DNA of 64,000 bases from Porphyromonas pogonae. GTDB lineage: Bacteria; Bacteroidota; Bacteroidia; Bacteroidales; Porphyromonadaceae. Positions 1 to 15,393 of this stretch are shown one piece after another. A program made the position numbers and the translations under genes. Each line of letters starts with the position of its first letter. The first letter of the stretch is position 1. The notes beneath the pieces were generated by a model. That model searched no databases, was not told where the DNA came from, and was given only the letters and a program-made list of their open reading frames with translations. The stretch covers positions 2,046,001 through 2,110,000 of the forward strand of contig NZ_CP143258.1 of the NCBI RefSeq assembly GCF_036320655.1, read 5' to 3'.

Positions 1-1
1 C

Positions 2-982
2 CAGAAGAAACAGCTGCGTAAAAAAATTGGATTTAATGAGAAAGAATCGTCTCGTTGGGCTGCATCGGCTAAAATGGCAAACGCGAATTTGCCAGAAAAT
101 TTACGTAAAACCATGGTGGGTGATCGTGAGAATGATATCTACACCGTCATGAGTAAGACGTTGGAAGAAGGATGTGATTTTCTGATTCGCTCCATTCACA
201 ATCGGCTTCTCGAGGGAGATTCAAAATCTAAAAAAGAACGTATCATCGAATGGTTGGATAAACAACCGGTTAGTTTCAGTTGCACATCCCAGATCACTAG
301 GCAAAATAGGCGTAAACCTCGCAAGGCGTTGTTCGACGTCAAATATGCACCAGTCACTTTCGGCAACACAGGTAATGGTAAAGACGATGTTTCAAAGAGT
401 ATTAGCTGCCACTACGTTCATGTCAGAGAAGATGCCGGTAGCGTTCCCGAGGGTGAAAAGCCTATCGAATGGCGTTTGCTCACCTCGCACGAAGTAAAGA
501 GTAAGGAAGATGCACTCCGGATTATACAGTGGTACAAGTATCGATGGCATATCGAAGAAGTCTTTAGATTAATGAAAACCAAAGGCTTGGGTATTACCTC
601 TGCCCAATTAGAAAACGGTATGGCGATGAAAAAGCTTATGGCAATGGGGTTCTATGTTGTGCTAAAGTGTATGACTCTAAAGAAAAAATATGACACTGCC
701 AATGAGAGCGTTTCATGTAATCGACTCTTTACAGAGGAAGAGTGCGAGATGCTGCATCTAGAGATGGAAATGCTACATAAAGAGTCTCCTCGATCAAAAG
801 ATGGGAATAATCCTTTTCGGGAAGATTCGTTAGCTTGGGCTTCGTGGATAATAGCCCGACTGGGATCATGGAAAGCTTATGTAAAATCTGGCGGACCTCC
901 AGGATATAATACCATGTGCAAAGGTCTAAAGGTTTTCCATGAGCACCTCACTGTACTATCTTTCATGAAACAAAAAAATTAA
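2..982 (+). CDS. IS4-family (Tn5-like) transposase, 5' end outside the window
   Basis: The reading frame is open from base 2, so the gene enters from the left and the Met at 74 is probably internal. The product is a DDE transposase that cuts and joins the ends of its insertion sequence. Counting from the Met at 74, residues 16-21 (GDREND) match the conserved block around the second catalytic Asp. Residues 154-168 fit the IS4 signature Y-x2-R-x3-E-x6-K exactly (Y154, R157, E161, K168), which carries the catalytic Glu. The C-terminal part is complete and ends in TAA. The right terminal repeat of the element could not be fixed without the left end. Whether the element is intact cannot be judged from this window. 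Confidence 0.85.
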   Translation, partial: QKKQLRKKIGFNEKESSRWAASAKMANANLPENLRKTMVGDRENDIYTVMSKTLEEGCDFLIRSIHNRLLEGDSKSKKERIIEWLDKQPVSFSCTSQITRQNRRKPRKALFDVKYAPVTFGNTGNGKDDVSKSISCHYVHVREDAGSVPEGEKPIEWRLLTSHEVKSKEDALRIIQWYKYRWHIEEVFRLMKTKGLGITSAQLENGMAMKKLMAMGFYVVLKCMTLKKKYDTANESVSCNRLFTEEECEMLHLEMEMLHKESPRSKDGNNPFREDSLAWASWIIARLGSWKAYVKSGGPPGYNTMCKGLKVFHEHLTVLSFMKQKN

Positions 983-1002
983 AAGATGTGTATAAAGATT
1001 AG

Positions 1003-1040
1003 CTTGGAGAAGGGGGCGGGGGGGGGGGATTGACCGCTTG
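1003..1040 (-). repeat. Partial inverted copy of the 120-bp dispersed repeat, with a G11 tract
   Basis: Read on the minus strand, this stretch repeats the core of the 120-bp repeat that starts at 1054 (CGGTCAATCCCC, a long C run, then CCCCTTCTCCAAG). Where the full copies have CCCCCTGCCCCC, this copy has a homopolymer: eleven G on the plus strand at 1018-1028. A tract of this length would be prone to slippage, but no gene start or promoter that it would switch is visible here. Confidence 0.6.
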
Positions 1041-1053
1041 TCTAATCTCCCCC

Positions 1054-1174
1054 TTTGCATCCATAAAAGCTCACCTTTTCATCAATCCCCTTTGGTATCT
1101 ACTTAGCTCTCTTCTCGTCAATCCCCCTGCCCCCTTCTCCAAGGGGGAGGCAAAGACATTGCTTACTTTTTGGG
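1054..1174. repeat. 120-bp dispersed repeat, copy A
   Basis: This stretch begins TTTGCATCCATAAAAGCT and ends TTGCTTACTTTTTGGG. It is nearly identical to 4080-4199, in the same orientation. The two copies bracket the HU gene, the reverse transcriptase and the template repeat. Part of the right half (CTTCTCCAAGGGGGAGGCA) recurs at 10672-10700. It lies between the transposase and HU genes and does not look coding. Confidence 0.8.
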
Positions 1175-1191
1175 GGGAGGGGAGAAGTATG

Positions 1192-1704
1192 TCACAAGCC
1201 TGAGCCAGGGTTTGGAGGCGTCCCACTGCCGGCATTATCTCCCGGTGTAACCCCACCCGCTCCAGGCTTAGCGGACTTGAGGACTTTGCGACGCCCCGTC
1301 TCAGCACTCACTCGCTCATAGGCGAGCCCTTGGCCACCTCGTGTGGTTGCACTAGCTTTGAGTTCCTTGGAAGGAGTAAAAAGTATCTTGGGCGTACGAA
1401 TCAACCCAGTGTTGAAATCGCCCTCCTTTTCTACAGCTTTGGAACCGAATGAGAGGCGGAAGGAGCCAAAGTCTTCCAGACGCACTATGCGCCCCTTGAC
1501 CAACTCCTCATTCATCACATACACCATGCGATCCAGCACCGCACGCACATCGGCACTCGTCATAGCAGAGTACTCTGCTATGCGAGTGCACAGCTCCTTG
1601 AAGTTCATGTCGTCGAGGTATACCGGCTGTGCCGTGTAGATGTTTTTACCTTTTTGGGGGCCAATATTGATCTTGCGCCCCACGAGTTTGAATTTGATAC
1701 TCAT
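1192..1704 (-). CDS. HU-family (HU-HIG type) DNA-binding protein
   Basis: This is a 170-residue protein of the long HU-like family common in Bacteroidales. Members bend and wrap DNA non-specifically, like HU/IHF. The N-terminal 35 residues form the extra strand-rich segment of this family. Residues about 35-90 hold the helical HU dimerisation core, with the family block GRIVRLEDFGSFRLSF, followed by a PSKEL segment. The C-terminal 40 residues are Gly/Pro-rich and look disordered (ending PPNPGSGL), as is usual in this family. It is the last gene of the minus-strand block, downstream of the DGR reverse transcriptase, with a 22-bp-period array just upstream. A direct role in DGR retrohoming is only a guess from position. 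Confidence 0.85.
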   Translation of the reverse strand: MSIKFKLVGRKINIGPQKGKNIYTAQPVYLDDMNFKELCTRIAEYSAMTSADVRAVLDRMVYVMNEELVKGRIVRLEDFGSFRLSFGSKAVEKEGDFNTGLIRTPKILFTPSKELKASATTRGGQGLAYERVSAETGRRKVLKSAKPGAGGVTPGDNAGSGTPPNPGSGL

Positions 1705-1785
1705 TGTCTTTGTTTTTTATTAGTTTAATATTCGTTTACGCCCATCCTCACTGGACAGGCCAATGCATCTGTCATAGGGTCACCG

Positions 1786-1916
1786 TAGCTACCTGTACTT
1801 CAGGTCATCGTTAGGTGTACTTGCAGCCATCGCTACACGTACAGGAGACACACCGTTACTTGTACGTGCAGCATCGACACCCTGTACAAATAGCGGTGAT
1901 AGCCTGTACATGCAAT
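1786..1916. repeat. Degenerate 22-bp tandem array centred on GTAC
   Basis: Six GTAC tetramers start at 1795, 1817, 1839, 1862, 1884 and 1906, with spacings of 22, 22, 23, 22 and 22. A second motif, CATCG or a close variant, recurs with the same period between them (about 1806, 1828, 1850 and 1872), so this is a true tandem repeat and not a chance series of GTAC. The array lies between the reverse transcriptase stop and the HU start, in the presumed upstream region of the HU gene. Twenty-two bp is two helical turns, so all GTAC cores face the same side of the DNA. Confidence 0.75.
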
Positions 1917-1990
1917 AGGGAGAGAGAGGTTTGTGTCTGGGATACCTTCGACCTTGTAGTTTCTTTTTTATTATTACCATCTTTTTTAGT

Positions 1991-3361
1991 CTATCGATTG
2001 CTTGTTTTCTTTTGGTGTTCTTTATCATAGAGGAGAGGAGATACTTTTGTTTCACCCGATGAGAGTCTCAGAGTGTTGCCACCTGCGTGTGTCTCTCTCT
2101 TATCAGGCAGTATCCCATGAGCATGAAGCACAAACTTGTGTAAGAAAGGTGTAGCATACGCTATCTCAAAAAGCGCACTATCTCGAAACATACGCTTACG
2201 CACGCCATATGATGCCGTGCCCGTTAGTATCCCCAAATACGAGTTAGCATGAGCCAGCATATACTCCCGGTATTTTCGTTGTTTTCTTATCTCCCCAGGC
2301 TGTGCAGCAACTTCCTCATTGAGCTTTGCTACTCTTTTGCATATGCGTTTTCGGGTGGCGTGGCTCAGGTATCTTCGGTAAGGCTTGAGGTGAATGCCCA
2401 GAAAGGTCACCCCCTTTTTCACCTCCTGTAGTTTTATCTTGTTCGGGTGCAGTTCCAGCCCCCAGACTTCACTGAGGCGGCGTGCCATAGGGGCTATCAG
2501 AGATTTGAGATACTCTGCATCCGTGTGTATGAGGTAGAAGTCATCCACATATCGTCCGTAGTGCCTGATATGGAAGTCGCTTTTGACCCACCGGTCAAAG
2601 TCGTTGAGGTATAGATTGCTAAAAAGCTGTGAGGTCAGGTTGCCTATAGGTAGTCCGCACATATCGGGTGAGTACAGCAAGCTTTTGGAAGGTGGCAAGC
2701 CTTTGCTCAAGGCAGGGTTGCCACGGTACACACAATTTCTGATAGGGTCATGGTATATCACTTTATGCAGTAGCTCAGTCACCAGTCTATGCTTGGGCAG
2801 CTCACGTAGTAGCTTGCCCGCAGGGTGGCGCTGCGAGCCTATCTTATCCATCAGAGTCATAGCCTTGCGGTAGAGTATATTCCGATCTATGTGCATGAAA
2901 TAGCCACGAATGTCGAGTTGCAGTACATAGGCAGGGCGAGTATACTGCTGTGAGCAGGAGAGGATGTGATGTTTCAGGCGCTCTACCCCAAAGTGAGTAC
3001 CCTTGCCCGTGCGGCATGAGTAGCAATCATGTATCAGCAGTCTCTCCAGCGTGGGGTTGAGATAAGCATGGATGTAGTGGTGTACTATGCGGTCACGGAA
3101 GTCTGCCGCTATCACCTCACGCAGTACCGGGGAGGTCACCATGAATCGGGTGCAAGGCCTGATCTCATAGCAGCCGTCCATAATGCTCCGAGCCAGATCC
3201 GTAAGCTCCTCCTCGAAGCGTAGCTCAAACTCCAGGCGTGGCTTGCTACTGCGTTTGTGCCGTGAGGCAGCAGTATATGCCACCAGCAGGTCAGCCATGA
3301 GTTCGTGGTATGTTTGTGTAGTGGCTATAGCGTTTGTACTCATTATATCACTGTATATCAT
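1991..3361 (-). CDS. DGR reverse transcriptase
   Basis: This enzyme copies the template-repeat RNA into adenine-mutated cDNA that replaces the variable repeat of the target gene. It has 456 residues; a start at the Met codon ending at 3343 (MSTNAIATTQ) is equally likely. Visible RT motifs are LQLDIRGYF with the first catalytic Asp at residue 150, LPIGNLTSQ at 237-245, and GRYVDDFYLIH with the catalytic Asp pair at 273-274. The IGxxxSQ form of motif 4, in place of the QGxxxSP of group II introns and retroviruses, is typical of DGR and retron enzymes. There is no maturase or endonuclease domain. The template repeat lies 157 bp upstream and avd beyond it, the classic VR-avd-TR-RT order. Confidence 0.95.
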   Translation of the reverse strand: MIYSDIMSTNAIATTQTYHELMADLLVAYTAASRHKRSSKPRLEFELRFEEELTDLARSIMDGCYEIRPCTRFMVTSPVLREVIAADFRDRIVHHYIHAYLNPTLERLLIHDCYSCRTGKGTHFGVERLKHHILSCSQQYTRPAYVLQLDIRGYFMHIDRNILYRKAMTLMDKIGSQRHPAGKLLRELPKHRLVTELLHKVIYHDPIRNCVYRGNPALSKGLPPSKSLLYSPDMCGLPIGNLTSQLFSNLYLNDFDRWVKSDFHIRHYGRYVDDFYLIHTDAEYLKSLIAPMARRLSEVWGLELHPNKIKLQEVKKGVTFLGIHLKPYRRYLSHATRKRICKRVAKLNEEVAAQPGEIRKQRKYREYMLAHANSYLGILTGTASYGVRKRMFRDSALFEIAYATPFLHKFVLHAHGILPDKRETHAGGNTLRLSSGETKVSPLLYDKEHQKKTSNR

Positions 3362-3517
3362 TGTTCATTTTCATATCTGCCGTAGCAGAGAGAGAGAGAT
3401 GAGAGGGGATCATAGCCTCTCATCTTACTTCATCTACCGTAGAGGAGAGAGAGCTTGTATGCATACACCCGGTGAGTGTGAGGTGGCGGTGAGATATAGA
3501 GCCAAGGCGGCAGGTTC

Positions 3518-3675
3518 CTCGGAGAACGGACGCACAGCCATCCCGTTGGTCTGGTTGTTGTTGTTCACGTTCGCGTTGCTATTGTTCACGTTCATGTTGT
3601 ACGCGTTGCTACTATTGTTCGCCGTGGCCGACCAGAAGTAGCCGTTCGAGCCACGGTTGTTAGGCGAAGCGGCAG
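3518..3675 (-). repeat. DGR template repeat (TR)
   Basis: This 158-bp stretch aligns without gaps to 5513-5670 at a constant offset of 1995. It differs at 20 positions: T on the plus strand (A on the coding strand) at 19 of them, and one other at 3636. Translated in the frame of the target gene it is rich in Asn AAC codons (for example NNSNANVNNNNQTNG). AAC is the usual DGR template codon, because changing its two A residues cannot make a stop codon. The 28 bp nearest the RT side (3518-3545) match the variable repeat exactly and are the likely initiation-of-mutagenic-homing segment. It does not itself lie in an open gene. Confidence 0.97.
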
Positions 3676-4079
3676 CACTATGTCACACAAAAAAGTAACC
3701 TCTGATACTATATCGAGGTGAGTACCGGGCATCTCTTCCTGATATTTCGGAGAGACCCGCACTCTCAGCGATACCCCTTTGCATTCGGGACATAACCGGA
3801 GGCGGGCAGTTGTGGGCAAGAAGCTCGCACGGGGCAGCAGCTATGCTGTGGTGACCATCCTGGAGCTATCTCTCACTCCTCCTCGCCTTGACGGTGGGTT
3901 ACCGAACCTACCATAATCCTCTCCTGCTCTGCACTATGACATAGGAGCAGGACTCTCATTACAATGCTTTTACATCGCACTTGGCCTTTTCTCACACGCA
4001 CCCCTCACACCATTTTGAGGTTGCACTCAGAGACACAGGGACGTTTATCTCTGTATGCTGTGCTTTTGTCAATGCTCGT
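3676..4079. other. Non-coding spacer between TR and avd
   Basis: No convincing gene lies here on either strand. In characterised DGRs the RNA upstream of TR is part of the functional template transcript. This spacer is the matching segment on the minus strand and probably belongs to the TR RNA. No secondary structure was resolved by eye. Confidence 0.5.
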
Positions 4080-4199
4080 TTTGCATCCATAAAAGCTGTT
4101 CCTTTTCCTCAATCCCCTTGCATCTACTTAGCTCTCTTCTCGTCAATCCCCCTGCCCCCTTCTCCAAGGGGGAAGCAAAGACATTGCTTACTTTTTGGG
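4080..4199. repeat. 120-bp dispersed repeat, copy B
   Basis: Second full copy of the repeat at 1054-1174, in the same orientation, with scattered substitutions and short indels mostly in its first 50 bp. The right half, from CTACTTAGCTCTCTTCTCGT onward, is almost unchanged. It sits between avd and the template repeat. Confidence 0.8.
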
Positions 4200-4277
4200 A
4201 GAGGCAGAGAGGCGTAGCATTCTTCCTATCGAAAAAACGCATCCGAGGGGGAGGCAGGAGAAGAGGCTGAGACACGC

Positions 4278-4652
4278 TCATCTCACATTAGCATCATGAG
4301 GGAGCTTCGTCACAGATGTCACATGCTTCTCCCATGCGGTGAGTTGCTTGGATATGTCAGCTATGCTTTCTGTGATCATCACACATTGCTTGAGAGAGAG
4401 TAGCTTCAGCTCTCGCATGAGCCTGAAATGCACTCGCACCCTCACCAGCTCCTGTCTGGCACGTGATATATGATCAGCTTTGTCACGCACTATATTCGCA
4501 CGGTATATCTCCATCAGTACTTCCTGTAAGGTGCGCTTCATCTCCTCTGCCAGCGTGTATCTGTACTCACGCTGTATCTTCACCGTGTATCTGTACACAT
4601 AGATTAGCAGGTCAAAGGTGGCTTTGTATACCGGTAGGTTTTCGTAGTTCAT
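4278..4652 (-). CDS. avd: Avd, DGR accessory variability determinant
   Basis: This is a small 124-residue, all-helical, basic protein. It opens NYENLPVYKATFDLLIYVYR and continues with three further amphipathic helices, fitting the four-helix bundle of bAvd and the related 23S rRNA intervening-sequence proteins. In known DGRs, Avd forms a pentameric barrel that binds the reverse transcriptase and the template RNA and is needed for cDNA synthesis. Its length matches the family. It lies between the MutS-like gene and the template repeat on the same strand as the target gene and RT, which supports the call independently of sequence. Confidence 0.9.
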   Translation of the reverse strand: MNYENLPVYKATFDLLIYVYRYTVKIQREYRYTLAEEMKRTLQEVLMEIYRANIVRDKADHISRARQELVRVRVHFRLMRELKLLSLKQCVMITESIADISKQLTAWEKHVTSVTKLPHDANVR

Positions 4653-4790
4653 GGCTGATTATTTCTTTGTCTATACATGTTGCGACATGGGATCTATGTC
4701 CGTATTTTCTCATGATATGCCCGGGAAGTAATGTAAGAGGAGTGAAAAACATAAATACCATCAGTAGCATACAAAATAGCAAGGTGATTC

Positions 4791-5384
4791 TTACCCTCTC
4801 TCACACCCATGCTCCGCCACCATCTGCCTCAGCTCTGCCACAAACAGCATACATCTCATGGGTGTAGCGGCTTCCAAGTGGAAGTTCTTCAGCTTTTCCA
4901 GTGCGGCTCTTTCTGCAGAGGTCACCGTAAAGGCTATGCTACGCATGCTATCATGGCATAGAGACTCATCTACCGGCACATCCTCAGTGAGCATACTCGG
5001 GGGGAATAGGGGTGTTTTGCGCACAGGAGGAGTATCCATGGGTATATTTTCTCTCCATGACCCGAAGTCCGCCTCCGGTGCTACCATGTCTTGGTTTATA
5101 GGTATCAGTATGACTTTACCTCCTGAGTTGGGCTCTTCCCGGGGCTTACAGCCTGCCGGTAGTTGCAGGGAGGCGAGTGTGCTGATGGGAAAACCCGTCG
5201 ATACTACATCACGATGCACTGATTTGTAATATTTGCGCTTGGCTCTGTAGCTCCTGATGTGGTGTACAAATAAGTAAGCCGAGTATTCGTAAGCTTTGTA
5301 GAATACGCCCTCAGCGTAGAGCCTGACAGTGGGTTCACTGTTGTGGTTAGATTCGGTTGCCAGTATATCTTTGATACATGTCAT
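4791..5384 (-). CDS. MutS-like DGR accessory protein (MSL type)
   Basis: The 197-residue protein has an N-terminal part, about residues 15-75 (LYAEGVFYKAYEYSAYLFV through VVSTGFP), that resembles the mismatch-recognition domain I of MutS. That domain also has a Phe-Tyr-rich block leading to a short strand. The rest is a Pro-rich linker and a C-terminal helix pair (ERAALEKLKNF, CMLFVAELRQMV). MutS-like genes have been reported as accessory genes in some DGRs, and the position here, between the target gene and avd, fits. No ATPase domain is present, so it cannot be a full MutS. Its function in diversification is unknown. Confidence 0.65.
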   Translation of the reverse strand: MTCIKDILATESNHNSEPTVRLYAEGVFYKAYEYSAYLFVHHIRSYRAKRKYYKSVHRDVVSTGFPISTLASLQLPAGCKPREEPNSGGKVILIPINQDMVAPEADFGSWRENIPMDTPPVRKTPLFPPSMLTEDVPVDESLCHDSMRSIAFTVTSAERAALEKLKNFHLEAATPMRCMLFVAELRQMVAEHGCERG

Positions 5385-5438
5385 GGTAGTGATCTTAAAA
5401 AAAAATTCGACCGCTTCGCGGTTCTTACTTCTTTTTGA

Positions 5439-5464
5439 CGCCTCCGCCTTTGAGGGCGGAGGCG
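5439..5464. promoter_or_regulatory. Perfect 10-bp hairpin downstream of the variable repeat
   Basis: Arms 5439-5448 (CGCCTCCGCC) and 5455-5464 (GGCGGAGGCG) are perfectly complementary around a 6-base loop. A small 4-bp hairpin (CCGC/GCGG) follows at 5411-5421. On the minus strand this hairpin is followed by A residues, not T, so it does not look like a terminator. Confidence 0.6.
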
Positions 5465-5485
5465 AAATAAAACAAATGAATCGAA

Positions 5486-5508
5486 TAAAACGGCAGTGCG
5501 CCGTTTTA
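5486..5508. promoter_or_regulatory. Perfect 9-bp hairpin directly after the target-gene stop codon
   Basis: Arms 5486-5494 (TAAAACGGC) and 5500-5508 (GCCGTTTTA) pair perfectly around a 5-base loop, one base beyond the stop codon at 5510-5512. In the Bordetella phage DGR a hairpin/cruciform just downstream of the variable repeat is needed for efficient retrohoming, and this one sits in the same place. On the minus strand the stem ends in TTTTATTCG, so it could also act as a weak terminator. Confidence 0.7.
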
Positions 5509-5509
5509 G

Positions 5510-7702
5510 TTACTCGGAGAACGGACGCACAGCCATCCCGTGGGCCTGGTAGCCGTTGTACACGAACGCGTAGCTATTGCCCACGCCCATGTAGTACGCG
5601 CTGCTACTATTGAACGCCGTGGCCGACCAGCAGTAGCCGTACGAGCCACGGTTGATAGGCGAAGCGGCAGACATACCGGCGGTACCGTTACTGTTATATC
5701 CATATGTAGGGAATATGCGAGTAACCGCTTCGGAGGCGTGATCGGACCACCACTGCTCGGATGCAAAGGTATTCACCGTACCGCTGAAGCCCTCGCCCAG
5801 ATACACGGCTTGTACCACGAGCATCTTACCACCACCGCCATGGGTGTTATCCTCATAGCTATAGCGCCATGCAGAGAGGCGGGTGTTGGTAGCATCCTTG
5901 TAGCGCAGAGCGTAGGTGATGAGCTTACCGCCCACATTGCCCATGTTCTTGTAGTCGCCACGGTAGGTAGCGGTCTGACCCGCAATCTCGATAGTCTCAG
6001 AGATATTCTCCTTCAAAGATGACTCAGAGTAACGGATAGCCGTACTTGCACTTCCCACATGATCGTTGAATATACCGTGACACTCATTGCGTGAGGGCAG
6101 GTGCCAGCCTTGGAGGGCAAGTGCTGTGCCGGAAGCAAAGATGGCTTTGGCGTCGGCCCAGTTGTAATAGCCGAAGTCGGCATCAGTGTTGCTGTGTGTA
6201 GTCACAAATCCGAGGCGTGAGGAGTTCACGGCGTACTCTGATACGTACTCGAGCGCCATCTTGGGGCGGCTCAGCTGTGATATGGTCACTGTGACTTTGT
6301 TCCCGGGCTTGAGCTTGTTGCGAAACTCTACCTTACCCACACGCGGTGTGCTACTGATCACGGGGTTGGCCTTGACTTCGAGTTGGAAATGCTGCTCCAT
6401 GCCGGCATAGGTGGTGATGTCTTTGAGTGATAGCCACTGGGCTCCCTCTATGACCACACCCTCACTCTGGGTGCTCTTGCCGGTAACATCGAGTAGCAGG
6501 TTGTAAGCCTCACCCGTGCGTATGGCTATGTCGGTGTTGGTAGCATTCGCTGTGTGCTTCACCTCATTAGCTGCCAGCGGAGCTGACCATGCGGTGTTGT
6601 ACCCGGTCACTTTGCTTACGGTAGGCGCATCCTCGTTCTTGTAGTCCTCCATGTAGCGGTAGTCTACCTTCCAGTCCTCTACGTCTACCTTGAAGGTAAT
6701 GCGGGGTGGGTTGATGGTAGGATCACCGGGCACAGTGTTGTCGTTGGGGTTGCGGTTGAGCTCCACGGTGTAGATGTGGTTGCGCAGTATAGCCAGGTCG
6801 GTAAACGGCACTGTCACCGTGCGCAGGGGCACATTGTTGAGAGCCAGCTGTACCTCCACGTGGGTATCAGCCGTCTTGCTGTTTTCGTACGTGTAGATGC
6901 TCTTCACGAATGGAGCTGAGGTATAGTCCTTGGTCTCGTCCGAGGTGAGATTGTCTGTCTTACCGCCCTTTTCGTAGAGGTAAGACTTGGTCTGGCGCTT
7001 CACCACCTTGACACTCGTGATGGAGAGCCCCTGATTCTTATTGCCGGGAGCTTCCCCCAGCTTCACATCGATGCGAGCCGAGAGGCGCTGCATGTCTATG
7101 GTACCGGTGTAGGCTTGGGCTATATTACGCTGGAGCTTCACACTGGCTACGGCACCGCCCTGAGGCTTGCCCAGCATCACAAACTGATTTTTGACATCGG
7201 ATGCCTGTGTGATGTGCAGCTCTTTCATATCGTCGAGCGTAAGATCCGTTACGGCTGCTTTGCTCTTAGCTGTGGCCAGAGCAGAGAGTGCCGATGCCAG
7301 ATCCGAGGTATTGAGGTTGCCCACGAGTACAAACTGGATGGTCTTGCCCTCTGCACCGTATTCCTTGCTGGCATCGAAGGTGGCTGTGCCCTTGGTATCG
7401 TGTGTGGCATCGCCTGCGGGCTGCACGTTGCTCACGGTGACGGGTTTGTTGCCGAGGTATTTGCCCCCGTCGTCGAAGATGAGCGCCTGAGTGCTTGTGA
7501 GTGCACTCTCGAATCCCTCTGCTGATACAACGGCGTAGGTAGCGGGCGTGGCCTGTGTGACGCCCCGCAGGGTAACTGATACGGGATAGTCGCCCGAGAG
7601 AGGGCCGGGTGCCGGCTTATCCACCGGGGCCTCGCTCGTACAGGCACTCATACCCAGGAGCAGAGCGGTCAGCGAAGCCATGTATAAATGTTTCTTCTTC
7701 AT
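5510..7702 (-). CDS. Fimbrillin-like tip adhesin lipoprotein, DGR target
   Basis: This 730-residue secreted lipoprotein is probably the fimbrial tip or a minor subunit. The signal peptide ends in LLLGMSAC (lipobox Cys21). Residues about 35-340 resemble FimA/Mfa1-type fimbrillins. Residues about 390-480 look like a BACON-type beta domain. The C-terminus, from about residue 495, is a C-type-lectin-like/Fibrobacter major-paralog fold with the landmarks GWHLPSRNE, YCWSAT and MAVRPFSE. The last 52 codons are the DGR variable repeat. Relative to the template, 15 residues differ (683, 688, 691, 697, 701, 704, 706, 708, 711, 713, 715, 717, 718, 720, 721), nearly all from Asn to Tyr, Phe, Gly, Ser, His or Ile. 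It follows a fimbrillin gene by 93 bp. Ligand unknown. Confidence 0.92.
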   Translation of the reverse strand: MKKKHLYMASLTALLLGMSACTSEAPVDKPAPGPLSGDYPVSVTLRGVTQATPATYAVVSAEGFESALTSTQALIFDDGGKYLGNKPVTVSNVQPAGDATHDTKGTATFDASKEYGAEGKTIQFVLVGNLNTSDLASALSALATAKSKAAVTDLTLDDMKELHITQASDVKNQFVMLGKPQGGAVASVKLQRNIAQAYTGTIDMQRLSARIDVKLGEAPGNKNQGLSITSVKVVKRQTKSYLYEKGGKTDNLTSDETKDYTSAPFVKSIYTYENSKTADTHVEVQLALNNVPLRTVTVPFTDLAILRNHIYTVELNRNPNDNTVPGDPTINPPRITFKVDVEDWKVDYRYMEDYKNEDAPTVSKVTGYNTAWSAPLAANEVKHTANATNTDIAIRTGEAYNLLLDVTGKSTQSEGVVIEGAQWLSLKDITTYAGMEQHFQLEVKANPVISSTPRVGKVEFRNKLKPGNKVTVTISQLSRPKMALEYVSEYAVNSSRLGFVTTHSNTDADFGYYNWADAKAIFASGTALALQGWHLPSRNECHGIFNDHVGSASTAIRYSESSLKENISETIEIAGQTATYRGDYKNMGNVGGKLITYALRYKDATNTRLSAWRYSYEDNTHGGGGKMLVVQAVYLGEGFSGTVNTFASEQWWSDHASEAVTRIFPTYGYNSNGTAGMSAASPINRGSYGYCWSATAFNSSSAYYMGVGNSYAFVYNGYQAHGMAVRPFSE
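5513..5670 (-). repeat. DGR variable repeat (VR) in the target gene
   Basis: This is the recipient of mutagenised cDNA, reaching exactly to the stop codon. Changes relative to TR lie at 5542, 5545, 5551, 5553, 5554, 5560, 5565, 5566, 5572, 5580, 5581, 5586, 5587, 5593, 5601, 5613, 5614, 5631, 5641 and 5655. All except 5631 are at template adenines. The last 28 bp (5513-5540) are unchanged and lead into the downstream hairpins. The pattern shows that diversification has occurred in this lineage. Confidence 0.97.
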
Positions 7703-7795
7703 TATCGTGATCTTTTTTGTTTACTTATTATTTATCTTTTGTTCTTTCTGCATGTACACTTATCCATATACACTTATCAAAGCGCATGTCCTTTA

Positions 7796-9241
7796 TTATT
7801 TCTTAGGCTGGATGATCTTCATGCTGTAGAGCTGATTGCCCTGCACGTCCTTGGCACTACGGAGCCAGATGATACCGGCACGCTCGGCACCCTCGTTGTT
7901 TTCCTTGACTGCGATGGTGATCTTACCCGCTGTAGGAGTCACGGTGATCCAGCTGTTGTTGGGGTCGGCCACACCGGCAGTACCGGGAGCAGTGATGGCT
8001 ACGAAGGTGGGGATGTCGTCCCCGGCATACTCGCTGGCTACCGTGAAGGCATCGGTGAGGGTCTTGGCATCGCCACTCTTGAGGGTCATCTCGTGCTTGG
8101 CGTTGTCATAAGTGAATTCTGCGGCAAGGGCCGTATTGGCCGTAAAGTTCAGGAGAGCCTTCAGGGGCTGGGTGATCTTGTGCTCGTCCTCCCACTTGAG
8201 TGTCATGATGTTGGCAGTAGCTTCGTAAGTATCGCCTTTGGGCTCCACACCCAGCACTATGGTGTAGAGGTAATTACGTGTGAGGTTGCGGTCGAAGGGA
8301 ATTTCGTAGCGCATCTTCACTGCCGCACCACCCGTAGCAGGCACATAGTCGGCACTGATATACACCGTGGGGGTACCCTTGGCGGTAAACTGCGACTGTG
8401 CACGCTCATAGAGGTAGAAGAGCTTTTTGTAGCGACTGGTGTACTGAGCCGTAGCCACAGCATCGAGGTGAGCAGTGAGTTCACCGGCACTCTTCACCTT
8501 GTAGCTCACGGAAGTCTCCGATGCAGGAGAGAGGTTGCCCGTTACAGGGAACAGGGACGTAAGCGAGGGGGCATTCCTGACCTCTACCTTGGTGATGGTG
8601 AGTGTCTCAGTACTCGTCTTGAGACGCTGAGCGATGTCGAGGCGAGCCACATCACGTGTGAGCATCACGATGTCGGATACCTGCTGGGTGAGATCCATAG
8701 GCGCACTACCATTGATGGTGACTTCCTTATTGCCGGTCATCACAAAGTCAGGCTTGATCTCGGCATCGGTGCTTGCCAAGGCCTTGGTAAGCTCGGCCTT
8801 GAAGGCATCCTTAGTAGTGGTTTGCAAGGGAAGGTCTCTCAGCTGCTTCTGCATCCAATTGTTTGTGGTCTTACCGAGATTGGCCACAAAGAGGAAGTCG
8901 TGCTTGCCCTTGGTACCCTTGTCCAGCTCTATCTGAGCCACCGTCTTGCGTGCTACGAAGTCCCCGTCGGGAGCGGCTGTGGTGGCAATGTCCTTGAAGA
9001 TTTTGACAAGCTTGCCGGCATCGTCAAACTCAAAGATGTCAAGACTATTGATAGCATACTCGTCCTGCTCGTGTACCTGAGCATAAGTCACAGGTTCTCC
9101 CGAGGGCAAGCCTATGGAGAACATCACACTATTGGCCGGCAATGCCGGGTCAGGCCCGACGGGGATCTGCTGCTCCTTGCTACATGCCGTGAGAAGTATG
9201 GCTGTGGCGCCGAGCATAGAGAAAATCATTTTCTTCTTCAT
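7796..9241 (-). CDS. Fimbrillin-family lipoprotein, probable major or adaptor subunit
   Basis: The 481-residue lipoprotein has a signal peptide ending LLTAC (Cys20), so it is carried to the outer membrane, where fimbrillins are trimmed and polymerised by strand exchange. The N-terminal two thirds show the Mfa1/FimA-like layout: an early strand with YAINSLDIFEFDDAGKLV, a KHDFLFVANLG strand, and a DVARLDIAQRL helix/strand. The last 90 residues form a separate beta domain of BACON type, ending SMKIIQPKK. It lies between the FimB/Mfa2-like gene and the DGR target gene, both on the same strand. Whether it is shaft or adaptor subunit cannot be told from the sequence. Confidence 0.8.
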   Translation of the reverse strand: MKKKMIFSMLGATAILLTACSKEQQIPVGPDPALPANSVMFSIGLPSGEPVTYAQVHEQDEYAINSLDIFEFDDAGKLVKIFKDIATTAAPDGDFVARKTVAQIELDKGTKGKHDFLFVANLGKTTNNWMQKQLRDLPLQTTTKDAFKAELTKALASTDAEIKPDFVMTGNKEVTINGSAPMDLTQQVSDIVMLTRDVARLDIAQRLKTSTETLTITKVEVRNAPSLTSLFPVTGNLSPASETSVSYKVKSAGELTAHLDAVATAQYTSRYKKLFYLYERAQSQFTAKGTPTVYISADYVPATGGAAVKMRYEIPFDRNLTRNYLYTIVLGVEPKGDTYEATANIMTLKWEDEHKITQPLKALLNFTANTALAAEFTYDNAKHEMTLKSGDAKTLTDAFTVASEYAGDDIPTFVAITAPGTAGVADPNNSWITVTPTAGKITIAVKENNEGAERAGIIWLRSAKDVQGNQLYSMKIIQPKK

Positions 9242-9496
9242 ACTACGTTCTTATTATTGATTAAACATAAAAGCAAATGCAGAAAACCATACCTCGAGAG
9301 AGGAGAGTATAGGATGAGCAAGCTCCCCTCCCCCGCCTTACGGTATTGATATGACTTCATGTCTATGCTTATTTCTTTTTTTATTATCCTATCTTAATAA
9401 TGTTGCCATATTTGTTGGAGTGTTCCGGTTATCAGCCTCTCTACACTCTCTCGATCTCTGTCTCTGTAGCACATGGTCCTTGACAAAACCTCCTTG

Positions 9497-10621
9497 TCAA
9501 AGATCATGTCCTATAGTACCCCCATCCTGCCAGTCGAGTACACTCAAATTGCCTGACGCTGTCACGGTGACAGATCCTGTAACCGGATCTATCTCTATGA
9601 TGAGGTGGAATATCTGCTCCGGTATCCGTGATGGCACCCACTTCATCTCCTCGAAGAATCGTTTGAGATTTATTTCCTTCATTAGTGGCACTCCGTCTTT
9701 GAGTACTCGGAATAGCGGTATGGAGTTGTCATCATAGCGCAAGGTCATAAACTGAGCATCCAGCATAGCCGATGAAATGGGGACATGTAGGCGGTGAGTG
9801 ACCGGATTGTCACCCAAGATGAGAGGAAAAGAGTGTACCACCTGAGTGACAGTACTTGTAAAAAGCGGTTCTTTGGGATCCGAAAAGGTATTCATCACAA
9901 TCTTGGGTACACGTGGGTGTAAGCTCATCCGATACGCACGAGGCACCTCTCGGAGTTGTAAGGTGTAGAGCCCGGGCTGTGAGGGTAGTTGCCTCTTCCA
10001 CTTCACGGTAATGCGCATCAGACAGTGTATATTGCTCATATCACATATGTAGTGAGCTGTACGGTTGCGAGTCATCTCAAAATCTTGGATGCCCCAGTAG
10101 AGCGCATCACCATTGGTATAATAAGCATCTGCGCTACCTTGCTCCCGGGTATTTATGCTCATGAGCATCTCCGAGAGGCGGGTCTTGCCCACTGTAAAAG
10201 GGAAGGCTGTCCTTGTACTTCTATTACCTACTACAAGTAGGGTGTACTTACCATAAGGAAGCACCGTGGGCTTGAAGTGCAACTCCTGGGGCTGTCGTGT
10301 GACAATCGTATGGGAGAACAGGATGCCGTGAGAGTCGAAGATGAAATGCTCCGAGTGATGTATATGGATGCGGTAACGATCTCCCTCGGCCACACGACGT
10401 ACGTAGCGAATACTGATATCAACACCTTCACAACACACATCACGATCATCATCTGTGGAGCACCCACCCAGGACAAAGATGGCTACGATAGCTCCGGCAA
10501 GCAATGCCAGCAGCATACCTCGCCGGCATCGCATAGCTCTGCGACGACGCCTCTGCGCTTTTTCTTGCTTGATGTCTGCCATAGTTCTTGGCTTGTAATC
10601 TTCCATATAGCTATTTCGCAT
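9497..10621 (-). CDS. FimB/Mfa2-family fimbrial anchor lipoprotein
   Basis: The 374-residue protein is of the family that anchors Bacteroidales fimbriae in the outer membrane and limits their length. The N-terminus is unusual: about 35 polar, Arg-rich residues precede a hydrophobic segment ending VLGGC (lipobox Cys54). The true start may therefore be a downstream Met such as MRCRRGMLLALL. After the lipobox come strands typical of the family (LPYGKYTLLVVGN, CLMRITVKWKR, FHLIIEIDPVTGSVTV), and the C-terminal SVLDWQDGG matches the W-x-D ending of Mfa2-like proteins. It sits between the DUF3868 and fimbrillin genes, where this role is expected. Confidence 0.8.
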   Translation of the reverse strand: MRNSYMEDYKPRTMADIKQEKAQRRRRRAMRCRRGMLLALLAGAIVAIFVLGGCSTDDDRDVCCEGVDISIRYVRRVAEGDRYRIHIHHSEHFIFDSHGILFSHTIVTRQPQELHFKPTVLPYGKYTLLVVGNRSTRTAFPFTVGKTRLSEMLMSINTREQGSADAYYTNGDALYWGIQDFEMTRNRTAHYICDMSNIHCLMRITVKWKRQLPSQPGLYTLQLREVPRAYRMSLHPRVPKIVMNTFSDPKEPLFTSTVTQVVHSFPLILGDNPVTHRLHVPISSAMLDAQFMTLRYDDNSIPLFRVLKDGVPLMKEINLKRFFEEMKWVPSRIPEQIFHLIIEIDPVTGSVTVTASGNLSVLDWQDGGTIGHDL

Positions 10622-10671
10622 CTCTTTGCCTCTAATTATTCATATTATAAAGTAGTAGTCCGATCCTCTAT

Positions 10672-10700
10672 CTTCTCCAAGGGGGAGGCAGAGACATTGC
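10672..10700. repeat. Partial copy C of the 120-bp dispersed repeat
   Basis: CTTCTCCAAGGGGGAGGCA followed by GAGACATTGC matches the right half of the repeats at 1054 and 4080, in the same orientation. It falls in the 86-bp gap between the DUF3868 and FimB-like genes. Confidence 0.65.
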
Positions 10701-10707
10701 ATTAATT

Positions 10708-12345
10708 TTATCGAAAAGAGCTATCTACCATACCACCTTTGTTTTGCAATGACTCCTCCAGTTGTTCCAAATTGTACTTTGCTCGAGACTCTTCGCCCTT
10801 GACCTTGAGGGCACGGCGGAAGTAATCACGTGCTCGAGACAGATCGCCTCGCATCCAATAGTAAACACCCAAATTATTGTAAGCCTCCGGTACGTTCTGC
10901 ACCTTGCCCAGATACTTCCATGCTCCATCCAGATCGCCTCGTACAAGGGCTGCAGAGGCAGCATTGATATTTGCAACGGCGTCATTGGGGAAGTATTTGG
11001 CAGCTACATCGTACTCACGACCATAATCCTTGGCAGCTCTCTGTGACTTATCGCCACTATTGCGCCGGCGTGCTACTTCGTAGATCTCCTCTTGTGATAA
11101 GTCCTGAGGTCTCTGCTTCAAGACCTCCTCGGCCTCGACGGTCTCGAAAGAGCGTACCGTGTAGCTAACCTCCATCTCCATACGTCTCAAAGGCGGATAG
11201 AGGTTGTAAAGCATATATTTGTAGGGTACTCCTCCTGCCAGATCCATGAGTAGCTTTTCACGCCCCTTGAAGATGTCTACTCCGTCTATAATGGTAAGGA
11301 CAGCATCTCGATACATCATGTCACTCTCTTCCACTGCAGCCCTGAGGCCTTCCCAATCCTCACCCATACCTGTGGCGGGGAACATACTGATATCGTAAAG
11401 GCCGTACTTACGGATGAGATATTGCTTGAAACCATCAGCACGACGTTGTGATAGCTTGAGGTTATAGTCATAAGGTGCTTCAGGTGATGCATATCCTTTG
11501 ATAGAAGCACTTCGGATACGATAGGTCTCACGACGGGATGACAAAGGCCTGAGCACATTGTCTACTTTGGCAAGTTCTTCGGCATTACTTGCGTAGTAAG
11601 GCAAGATATCATACCGATCCACAATATAGTTGATATGAAGTGAGAGATGCTCATTACGCTCCTTGACCACTTCTTTCTTAGGGCGTATGAATGTCACACT
11701 ACTCTCATATACGGGCGGGGTCACTGAAGGTTTGGATGATCGAGGCGCATCCGCCTGGGCTTGAGAGCCCTCAATATCAGAGGGCTGTACTCCCATTAGA
11801 TGCCAGTCGCAACAATCCTCTATAAGCTGATCGAATGTAAGCTTGCCACCCAAATTTATAGGTTTGGTCAACGGAAGTGATACCCGGTAAGAAACGGACT
11901 GAACGTCTCCGACACGGGTAGGAACAGATACCACGACATAGGGTTTTTGCTCCCAAAAGGCACTGTGTGAGAGCAAAGCCTGTTCACGACGGTAGTAGGC
12001 GGCCCGCCTCTTTCCGTTGACCAATACCTCAGGAAATCGAAGTTCCACACCACCTACACGATATACAGGAATGATGTGTAAAGCATCGCCGGAGTTAATG
12101 ATGGCTCCACGAATTACCAATTTGAAATTGATATGCAGTGAATCTCCCCGGAAATAATTGTGAACCTCCTGGAATCGGAGCTCGGGCATGGATGTCCGGG
12201 GTGATAATTCCCGGGTCTGTACTGCGGCTACAGGCTTGGGCGAGGGATTATAGAAATTACGCCCGGCTGTCTGAGCCTTAGCCCCTCCGACGATAACGAT
12301 ATAAAGCAGTAATATGTGTAAAATATTGTGTAGAGTATGTTTCAT
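10708..12345 (-). CDS. DUF3868 / OmpA-like / TPR fimbria-associated protein
   Basis: The 545-residue secreted protein has a signal peptide ending GGAKAQ. Residues 50-175 are the DUF3868 beta domain. Residues about 235-395 resemble an OmpA-like peptidoglycan-binding domain (IKGYASPEAPYDYNLKLSQR is the characteristic helix-forming block). Residues 455-540 form tetratricopeptide-type helices (YNNLGVYYWMRGDLSRARDY). Proteins of this architecture regularly accompany FimA/Mfa operons and are thought to assist fimbria assembly or anchoring in the periplasm. It starts 14 bp after the DUF3575 gene, so the two are co-transcribed. Confidence 0.8.
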   Translation of the reverse strand: MKHTLHNILHILLLYIVIVGGAKAQTAGRNFYNPSPKPVAAVQTRELSPRTSMPELRFQEVHNYFRGDSLHINFKLVIRGAIINSGDALHIIPVYRVGGVELRFPEVLVNGKRRAAYYRREQALLSHSAFWEQKPYVVVSVPTRVGDVQSVSYRVSLPLTKPINLGGKLTFDQLIEDCCDWHLMGVQPSDIEGSQAQADAPRSSKPSVTPPVYESSVTFIRPKKEVVKERNEHLSLHINYIVDRYDILPYYASNAEELAKVDNVLRPLSSRRETYRIRSASIKGYASPEAPYDYNLKLSQRRADGFKQYLIRKYGLYDISMFPATGMGEDWEGLRAAVEESDMMYRDAVLTIIDGVDIFKGREKLLMDLAGGVPYKYMLYNLYPPLRRMEMEVSYTVRSFETVEAEEVLKQRPQDLSQEEIYEVARRRNSGDKSQRAAKDYGREYDVAAKYFPNDAVANINAASAALVRGDLDGAWKYLGKVQNVPEAYNNLGVYYWMRGDLSRARDYFRRALKVKGEESRAKYNLEQLEESLQNKGGMVDSSFR

Positions 12346-12359
12346 ATGAGCATTGGTAT

Positions 12360-12944
12360 TTATTTGAGATAATAGATGAGTGATAATACTGCTTTTGTGG
12401 GACCGAAGTAATTTCGCTTGTACTCGCCAAGGAAATCACCACAATCGCCACAGTCATACTTCTTATAGTTTAACCTCAAGTACCCAACACCCAAAGAAGC
12501 TTCAACCCCCCAGCGGTCACCCAGTGCCCACTGGTACCCCATACTTACACCACCTCCATAGGCATTGCCCTGATAACGGTAATTTTTTAAATCCTTGATC
12601 AGCGAGATACCTCCTACATTATATTCACCGTATACCCCGTGAATACCCACATAACCACGCTCGAAAGCTTGACAAAACCAATATTTTACCTCAGGCATCA
12701 CCAACCAATGGCGTAACTTGGGATGCACACGCACCCCGTCAACCTTGGTATGCGACCCGAAGTTGAAAGGATTGTATCCCCCATGGAGACTAAGAGTAAA
12801 CTGATCACCAGTACGAAACTCAAGCCCAATATTAGGAGTAGTGGTACCCCAATAGAGCAAATTTGTTTTAACTCCGATGCGTTGTGCCCGTACCGTCATG
12901 AAAATGCTCATAAACAGAAGCAAAGTGAGAGAAATATGTTTCAT
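12360..12944 (-). CDS. DUF3575 outer-membrane beta-barrel-like protein
   Basis: The 194-residue protein has a signal peptide ending MTVRAQ. The mature part opens RIGVKTNLLYWGTTTPNIGL, the hallmark of DUF3575, and continues in short amphipathic strands rich in Gly and Tyr (GGGVSMGYQWALGDRWGVEA), ending in an aromatic strand (KAVLSLIYYLK) like an outer-membrane barrel. DUF3575 genes commonly precede DUF3868 and fimbrillin genes. It is the first gene of the minus-strand fimbrial/DGR block, so any promoter for the block should lie upstream of 12944. Confidence 0.8.
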   Translation of the reverse strand: MKHISLTLLLFMSIFMTVRAQRIGVKTNLLYWGTTTPNIGLEFRTGDQFTLSLHGGYNPFNFGSHTKVDGVRVHPKLRHWLVMPEVKYWFCQAFERGYVGIHGVYGEYNVGGISLIKDLKNYRYQGNAYGGGVSMGYQWALGDRWGVEASLGVGYLRLNYKKYDCGDCGDFLGEYKRNYFGPTKAVLSLIYYLK

Positions 12945-13677
12945 GCTGTGTATATTAGGATATATAAATAGTAGTTCATACCAAAAGTGACTTGCTTATT
13001 TACAAATAGAGGAAGCATTGACCAATGCTAAAGAATAATTCCGATCATATGATTCTTAATCATGCATGATGATAATTATGAAATGGATAAAATATTTACA
13101 CCCTTTCATCTGTGCAAATAAGCTTAAGTAGCCACTTAATATTGAAGTCCATACAATCTATTATTCTCATTATCATCTATCTTTCTACTCCGATCTTAGC
13201 GGAAATAGATCAATAGATATAGCTCTTTTGTATCCACAGGCAAAGGTAGAACGCTCTACTTTATGAGGCTCCGAAATATCACCGGCAAATTGTGCACATA
13301 AGTGTATTTAAAGTACACATTAAGTGACTTATTATAATAAAACAGGTATTAATTGGCTAAAAAACAGCACATTACGAGCAGAACTAAGAGGTGATTAGAT
13401 TTTTCCGAGAATAATAATAGAAGAGTATCCTACGGAAAACTTTCGGAGATATACCCTTGCAGGTAGTGAACATAAACAAGCTATCTCACTATTAATAAGC
13501 ATACTAAAGCTGATACAAATAGGGCTAATATGCACCACTGCTGATATATATCTTACTTATCGTTATCTTTACAGCAAATAGCCTTATGGCGACTACAATA
13601 ATTATTTACAATCAAGACCGGAACATGAATTGAAAAGAAAATATGACCGGACATAATCTAAAAACAGACTGAATGAG
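12945..13677. other. Divergent intergenic region between the fimbrial block and the PepSY gene
   Basis: This 733-bp AT-rich region should hold the promoters of both divergent units. No clean TAnnTTTG box was found for the minus-strand block. A TATCTTTA box near 13563-13570 could serve the PepSY gene. A 6-bp hairpin (AGCATT/AATGCT) lies at 13014-13029. I looked for a long inverted-repeat pair of the kind that flanks invertible promoters and did not see one. Confidence 0.4.
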
Positions 13678-14844
13678 ATGAGGGTGAATCTAAAGAAAAT
13701 AGTAAGAAAGTTGCATTTATGGCTGGGCATACCGGCTGGTATAGTGATCTTTGTAGTAGCTATTACAGGTGCCGTATACGCTTTCAGGGATGAAATAGAA
13801 GATATGCAACGACCATCGCTTGCTATACGCAATACTGATAATGAGATATTGATGTCTCCGTTGGAACTGAAAGAAATAGCGGAAGACGTGATCAGAAAAG
13901 AGAACCCTCAAGGCAAGTCCAAAGTAAAAGAGGTCACATACCAAGGCATTGAGCATGCAGCAAAACTTACTACCGGAGGTAAGAAAGGCGATAGGATAGA
14001 TGTTTACCTCAATCCATACTCAGGTAAAAGAATATATACGGAACAGGTGAAAGACGGCTTCTTCAAGTTTATTATCAAAGGACATCGGAGCTTGTGGCTA
14101 CCGAGAAATATAGGTAAGCCTGTGATAGGCTGGTCTGTAGTCATCTTTATAATAGTGACTATCACCGGAATTGTGATGTGGTACCCGGACATGAAAAACT
14201 CCAAGGCGGTGATGGCAGCTTTCACGATCAAAAAGAAAGCTCCATACAAGCGTAAGATTCTTGATTATCACAACATATTAGGCTTTTATACAGCTATATT
14301 TGCTCTTATTATGGCCGTTACAGGACTCAACTGGAGTTTCAAAAAGTTTGGTGAGGCATACTACGGGCTTATTACCGGGGGTAAAACATATGAGGGCTGG
14401 AATATGCCCGAATCAAAATATAACAGTGATGCTCCGGAGTATAATGCAGATGATTTATGGACACAGATCAAGGATGATTATATTATGGATGAGAAATGTT
14501 CTTTGAGGATCAGTTTCCCCTCTGACAAAACCGATAGCTATGCGGTAGCATATAACCCTGATGGCAACAATAAATATTATCGCAGGCATATGAGGTTCTT
14601 TGATCGGTATTCTTTAGACGAACTGAAAGGAGGTGGACTTTTTGGAATTAAATATGAAGATTGCTCATGGGGACAAAAACTGTATAGAATGAACTACGAC
14701 TTGCATACGGGTAGGATAGCCGGAATACCGGGTAGAATTATCGCTTTTCTGGCATGTGTGATCATCGCCTCATTGCCCATAACGGGTATACTTATCTTTA
14801 TCAACAAACGTTTTAAGAAAAGAAGAAAAAGTATTGGAAAATAA
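13678..14844 (+). CDS. PepSY-associated inner-membrane protein (XusC-like)
   Basis: The 388-residue protein has four clear membrane segments: about residues 14-38, 147-170, 200-222 and 358-380. Between the first and second is a PepSY-type domain (residues about 55-130) with the block VTYQGIEHAAKLTTGGKKGD, and a larger soluble region lies between the third and fourth. PepSY_TM proteins occur in iron-acquisition loci and are proposed to reduce or handle ferric siderophores at the inner membrane. XusC of Bacteroides thetaiotaomicron, which works with a TonB receptor and a DUF4374 lipoprotein, is of this type. Homologues of those partners lie 6-10 kb away in this window, on the other strand. Confidence 0.85.
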   Translation: MRVNLKKIVRKLHLWLGIPAGIVIFVVAITGAVYAFRDEIEDMQRPSLAIRNTDNEILMSPLELKEIAEDVIRKENPQGKSKVKEVTYQGIEHAAKLTTGGKKGDRIDVYLNPYSGKRIYTEQVKDGFFKFIIKGHRSLWLPRNIGKPVIGWSVVIFIIVTITGIVMWYPDMKNSKAVMAAFTIKKKAPYKRKILDYHNILGFYTAIFALIMAVTGLNWSFKKFGEAYYGLITGGKTYEGWNMPESKYNSDAPEYNADDLWTQIKDDYIMDEKCSLRISFPSDKTDSYAVAYNPDGNNKYYRRHMRFFDRYSLDELKGGGLFGIKYEDCSWGQKLYRMNYDLHTGRIAGIPGRIIAFLACVIIASLPITGILIFINKRFKKRRKSIGK

Positions 14845-14923
14845 CAAGTCTATGATAAGTATGGTGAGTATTCTACTTTAGGCTGCCCAATCCCAAAAAC
14901 TTCCGACCTACGAAATGAAAAAG

Positions 14924-14961
14924 AAAGAGACTGCCCATGGTTGAATCCAAGCAGTCTCTTT
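14924..14961. terminator. Bidirectional intrinsic terminator
   Basis: An 11-bp perfect stem (AAAGAGACTGC at 14924-14934, GCAGTCTCTTT at 14951-14961) lies between the convergent PepSY and DUF2834 genes, with T-rich sequence after it on the plus strand and A-rich before it. Confidence 0.85.
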
Positions 14962-14981
14962 TCTCTTGTATCAGATTATAT

Positions 14982-15371
14982 TTATACAGTACGACCACTC
15001 CTTAGCTTTCGTTCTCTGAAAAAAAGAAACAAAGGAAAAGCAAAAGCAATGGCGATAAGGAACGACATTATGACAAATAGCCATATATACTTCATTCTGA
15101 CACGCATACCTTCGATAATCATAAAAGCGATCGCAGTAAGAGCCACTACAATAAAGTCTGCCGAGATACTCCGGGCATACCAATCATTGATCCATGTACT
15201 GGATACAAAGTCTTTGACATTGAAACCGCCATATTCGCGGATACCTATATTCACGAGAACAAAGGCGGAAAGTCCCAGCACTGCCAATAAAAGGTATAAT
15301 AAACTTAAGTATGACATACCTTGCTTCCCTGTAAAGGATGCTTGTTGAGATTGTACATTCTTTTCCATCAT
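14982..15371 (-). CDS. Small membrane protein, DUF2834-like
   Basis: A small protein of 129 residues when started at the MMEKNVQS Met codon; upstream Met codons overlap miaB and give an unlikely N-terminus. It has three hydrophobic segments (about residues 20-42, 68-88 and 95-115), separated by a short loop with GIREYGGFNVKDFV, and ends in a basic tail. The length and layout resemble DUF2834 proteins, whose function is unknown. It starts 22 bp after miaB on the same strand and shares its transcript. The link to miaB is probably only operonic. Confidence 0.6.
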   Translation of the reverse strand: MMEKNVQSQQASFTGKQGMSYLSLLYLLLAVLGLSAFVLVNIGIREYGGFNVKDFVSSTWINDWYARSISADFIVVALTAIAFMIIEGMRVRMKYIWLFVIMSFLIAIAFAFPLFLFFRERKLRSGRTV

Positions 15372-15393
15372 GATAACATATAAACAATAATAA

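Follow-up and report, generated by a model that had tools for sequence, protein, structure and literature searches.

A DGR predicted to diversify the last gene product of a type V pilus operon in Porphyromonas pogonae

Organization of the locus

The window, the whole stretch of 64,000 nucleotides of the Porphyromonas pogonae genome that was analysed (NZ_CP143258.1, positions 2,046,001 to 2,110,000), carries a five-gene operon followed by genes for an MSL protein and Avd, a template repeat (TR) and a reverse transcriptase (RT) gene, all in one direction on the minus strand. The first gene of the operon encodes a DUF3575 outer-membrane protein (12360..12944). It is followed by genes assigned by family matches to a DUF3868/OmpA/TPR protein of type V pilus operons (10708..12345), an Mfa2-family anchor pilin (9497..10621) and a FimA/Mfa1-family pilin, stalk or adaptor (7796..9241). 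The matches to Mfa2 and P_gingi_FimA lie above the cut-off, and DUF3868 and DUF3575 proteins are also encoded alongside the last gene of the operon, the target of the diversity-generating retroelement (DGR; 5510..7702). The latter encodes a putative tip pilin or adhesin lipoprotein of 730 aa with the lipobox LLLGMSAC and a C-terminal FISUMP/Lcl_C-like domain. An invertible promoter was considered in the region 12900-13750 and rejected, as only weak AT-rich inverted repeats and no good inverton were found there; the Bacteroides promoter pattern does not occur above chance in the window.

The RT (1991..3361, 456 aa) contains the motifs IGNLTSQ and YVDD pointed out in the initial annotation, embedded in GLPIGNLTSQ and GRYVDD. 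Both are intact and correspond to the DGR-type (I/V/L)GxxxSQ and the catalytic YxDD, which are common to 67 and 71, respectively, of the 73 scored relatives from genome contigs. The group II-like RTs that were read from the same genus have a QGxxLSP motif in place of the DGR-type motif. Avd, the accessory variability determinant (4278..4652), matches Pfam bAvd above the cut-off (5e-14) and the PHROG family "Avd protein of DGR" (2e-20), as the initial annotation had it. The MSL gene (4791..5384) encodes a DGR-associated MutS domain I-like protein of 197 aa, whose relatives adjoin DGRs across Bacteroidales. Its earlier description as MutS-like holds at the family level, with MutS_I matched by 9 of the 15 aligned MSL relatives (best 4e-4), but not for the window protein alone, which matches MutS_I weakly (E = 0.18); a PDB sequence search with MSL returned nothing. 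To our knowledge, the DGR of Bordetella phage BPP-1 has no MSL gene.

Several other elements lie close to this cassette. Just downstream of the RT gene, on the same strand, is a gene for an HU-HIG family DNA-binding protein (1192-1704); as a candidate part of the DGR, this gene (1704-1192) was rejected, since it has no relative beside the other fetched DGRs. The C-terminal part of an IS4-family transposase (74-982; ORF of 449 aa with its start upstream of the window) adjoins the DGR end. An 89-bp intergenic repeat, 93% identical between 1097-1185 and 4122-4210 and present also at 10672-10709, flanks the RT-Avd side, and the genome also holds two copies that are partial and shorter. It may be a small repeat, mobile or involved in recombination, and could mark the cassette borders. 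A phage origin of the DGR was rejected, with all phage RT matches below 60% identity and no phage genes adjoining among the ORFs listed. A search of window positions 1-16000 against Rfam returned nothing.

The template and variable repeats

The TR (3518..3675, minus strand) is a non-coding sequence of 158 bp between avd and the RT gene, and the variable repeat (VR; 5513..5670, minus strand) forms the last 52 codons of the target gene. The only long direct repeat found (3514-3675 vs 5509-5670, 87% identity) contains this pair, and no third copy is present in the whole genome, a single contig of 2.92 Mb. The exact VR/TR pattern was also sought in viral contigs, and none was found. The initial annotation had counted 20 differences over the ungapped 158 bp, 19 of them at TR adenines, and 14 codons changed through adenine substitution, 13 of them AAC; every one of these counts was reproduced exactly. 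From TR to VR, ten adenines are changed to T, eight to G and one to C. The only non-A difference in the core, TTC to TGC, means either a slight drift of TR and VR since the last event or an incomplete VR replacement, and the extension to 162 bp adds one further difference, G to T, which creates the VR stop codon. Over the 162-bp block, 19 of the 21 mismatches fall on the 47 TR adenines (hypergeometric p = 4e-10). No mismatch falls on a VR adenine, and the direction is therefore from TR to VR.

In the frame of the VR, the TR contains 15 AAC codons, and of its 45 core adenines 24 are at codon position 1, 21 at position 2 and none at position 3. Not one of the 52 template codons can mutate to a stop codon via adenine substitution, and the template could encode about 10^26 protein variants.

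A perfect hairpin with a 9-bp stem and a 5-nt loop (5486..5508, minus strand), of the target-recognition type, lies 4 nt behind the VR end; this gap consists of the stop codon and one base. A second, GC-rich hairpin is found further behind the VR (5439-5464). The 87-nt VR flank folds far better than shuffled sequences (z = -6.4), whereas behind the TR there is no hairpin and the flank does not fold better than shuffles. Among 40 TR/VR pairs, the VR flank reached p < 0.05 in a simple test in eight, including those of loci L029 (Prevotella) and L031. Thus, the VR-flank hairpin is real in the window DGR and not universal among its relatives. A target hairpin of comparable kind has been described for the DGR of Bordetella phage BPP-1 (PMC3240598), which shares with the window an RT, Avd, adenine-specific change between TR and VR and a hairpin behind the VR. 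It differs in its target, a phage tail protein, and in the hairpin loop, which follows GRNA there and is GCACT in the window.

The target protein

The C-terminal domain of the target matches FISUMP (5e-4) and Lcl_C (0.013), both below the curated cut-offs, and its N-terminal part has no match in Pfam, NCBIfam or PDB sequences. Searches of PDB sequences with the full target and with the C-terminal domain returned nothing. The structure models are weak for both the full-length protein (pLDDT 34) and the C-terminal domain (pLDDT 58). The latter model gave no match at E <= 0.001 with Foldseek against the PDB, and a second fold comparison with the same weak model gave mainly PAS-like partial overlaps, with the C-terminal domain of Bdellovibrio Bd2740 first (Z 7.1 over 74 residues). 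In the same genome, a 439-aa paralogue of the C-terminal domain is encoded at G000:C1:1125821-1126192 (L121:7279-8598), with no DGR parts nearby.

Tip proteins of type V pili combine a large N-terminal part with a C-terminal ligand-type domain (PMC12632263), and VR regions are systematically tied to C-type lectin folds (Roux et al., PMC8144416). Among the 36 DGR targets scanned here, 24 match Fib_succ_major and 21 match Lcl_C. The best reading of the target, given the operon context, the domain order and the relatives, is a putative tip adhesin or pilin of a type V pilus. The weak FISUMP/Lcl_C matches and the homology to other DGR targets suggest that its C-terminal domain has a C-type lectin fold, and we infer a role of the target in binding. 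The initial annotation had proposed a fimbrial tip adhesin diversified by a DGR; a DGR aimed at a lipoprotein of a fimbrial operon is strongly supported, while the tip position and the lectin fold are kept here as putative.

Related DGRs in other Bacteroidales

When genome contigs were scanned with the RT sequence alone, no relative came up, whereas an alignment-based scan yielded 80 DGR loci whose organisms are named. With a search written for the purpose, which looks for A-biased repeats, TR/VR pairs were recovered in most of the loci examined. The window RT falls into one clade with the RTs of two Prevotella DGRs from goat abomasum, L029 and L030 (support 100/99), which are also its closest relatives (51-53% identity). 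These loci have the same order of target, MSL, Avd, TR and RT as the window, and their targets have an Mfa_like_1 fimbrillin domain. They differ in their neighbors, which are Mfa_like_1/Big_2 lipoproteins, with no relatives of DUF3575, DUF3868 or Mfa2 in the fetched stretch.

Pilin genes are found beside further DGRs: Mfa1-family (over the cut-off) and Fimbrillin_C in Bacteroides reticulotermitis (L071), FimA, Mfa2 and a clostripain-family protease in Massilibacteroides (L032), and Mfa2 in Alistipes (L035). In Alistipes, no TR/VR pair was resolved by the A-biased repeat search, and its putative target was therefore assigned from position. A different arrangement is seen in L033, L034, L037 and L043 (Alistipes, Rikenella and related), where the RT lies downstream of the MSL-Avd pair, separated from it by several kb of other sequence. 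The A-biased repeat search gave no convincing TR/VR pair for these four loci; they may represent DGRs whose target is remote, or that have more than one.

DGRs directed at pilins of Bacteroidales have been published, in accord with the caution in the initial annotation that the class may not be wholly new. A DGR target from a human stool metagenome reported in 2014, SRS014459.31157, is a lipoprotein with Mfa2 and Fib_succ_major domains (PMC4159848). Like the window target, it is a fimbrillin-family lipoprotein with a terminal FISUMP-type domain; it differs in being a metagenomic protein and in its Mfa2 domain, which was not detected in the window target. According to passages of a 2025 review (PMC12632263) that cite Macadangdang et al. 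2025 (Science 390:eadv2111), a study cited also in PMC12875486, DGRs are widespread among Bacteroides, where tip pilins are diversified by them. As these passages describe them, the Bacteroides DGRs resemble that of the window in being aimed at a type V tip pilin of Bacteroidales. The genus of the window lies outside the Bacteroides loci examined, and its RT is distant (about 42% identity to that of B. reticulotermitis). The window locus thus belongs to an already known class, to which the orphan tips of a sister species, described below, add a modest new point.

Distribution in the genus and the sister-species locus

The host species is represented by one genome. The window RT has no counterpart in the genomes of the 25 other species of the genus or in 12 genomes of another genus of the family, so that this DGR was found in 1 of the 26 species of the genus. 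Relatives of the target C-terminal domain without any DGR are present in many of these genomes.

In a sister species, G021 (L117:6852-11671), the orthologous pilus operon has two tandem tip genes whose ends differ in DGR style. In the last 50 codons of these genes, 31 differing sites are at codon positions 1-2 and one at position 3, compared with 11 and 14, respectively, in the preceding 100 codons (Fisher p = 7e-6). The differing codons tend to coincide with Asn codons in the window TR (11 of 15 vs 6 of 29, p = 0.001). Inverted repeats lie behind both tip stop codons, and the second tip gene is succeeded by a relative of MSL. The G021 genome is a single contig with a listed completeness of 99%, and neither a DGR RT nor Avd nor a further TR-like copy was found in it; of its five RVT_1 matches, which have identical scores and lengths, the one that was read is of the group II type (QGGNLSP).

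The simplest reading of this sequence pattern is that G021 probably lost its DGR after two variants had been made, leaving frozen tips. Diversifying selection on a duplicated gene may also have produced the pattern, or the DGR may reside on an unseen replicon. A small literature search found no description of orphan VR-like tips such as these. For the genus, the odds seem even to us that the pilus-tip DGR is gained and lost, with one species keeping it running and a sister having duplicated the tip, lost RT, Avd and TR and fixed two variants. The DGR would then serve for a time to generate adhesins that persist as a stable repertoire.

Discussion

From its sequence, we conclude with a probability of roughly 0.88 that this chromosomal DGR, linked to the operon of a type V pilus, is complete and probably functional. 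In the predicted mechanism, the TR RNA would be copied by the RT with Avd, random bases would be inserted opposite the template adenines, and the cDNA would replace the 3' end of the last operon gene. Homing would be guided by the GC-rich 3' end, which is identical in TR and VR, and by the hairpin that follows the VR. As many as 45 bases, spread over 52 codons, could be changed without any stop codon, so that each event would give the C-terminal domain of the predicted pilus adhesin a different surface.

The DGR is presumably active at present. That it is instead silent, intact in sequence but with a VR left frozen by earlier events, as may hold for the sister species, is an unlikely alternative: the G021 locus retains two variants of the tip and a relative of MSL without a DGR RT, Avd or TR, and one non-A difference has accumulated in the window repeat. 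The open RT, Avd and MSL genes with their conserved motifs, together with the otherwise complete identity of TR and VR outside adenines, which extends to the 3' end required for homing, argue against silence.

A second alternative concerns the place of the target, which could be a lipoprotein standing free on the surface or a minor accessory subunit, expressed along with the pilus. In favor of this, the NCBIfam FimD-tip model best matches the neighboring 481-aa pilin, not the target. We nevertheless consider this improbable, since the target gene is the last of a complete anchor/stalk operon, its N-terminal part and ligand-type C-terminal domain follow the type V tip layout (PMC12632263), and the same gene order, with two such genes, recurs in the sister species. 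Finally, the notion that TR and VR arose when the end of a gene was simply duplicated and then diverged by chance or selection, with which the single non-A difference would agree, can be dismissed, being already refuted by the concentration of 19 of the 20 core differences at TR adenines and countered by the lack of adenine changes at codon position 3 and the adjoining RT, Avd and MSL genes.

A DGR-diversified pilus adhesin is the preferred reading, and the locus adds a compact, complete and stop-proof DGR with a putative pilus-tip target to a class that was described in gut Bacteroides, a group to which its host does not belong. The G021 locus offers a testable case of the remnants of DGR loss, and of which adhesin variants selection keeps after mutation ends.
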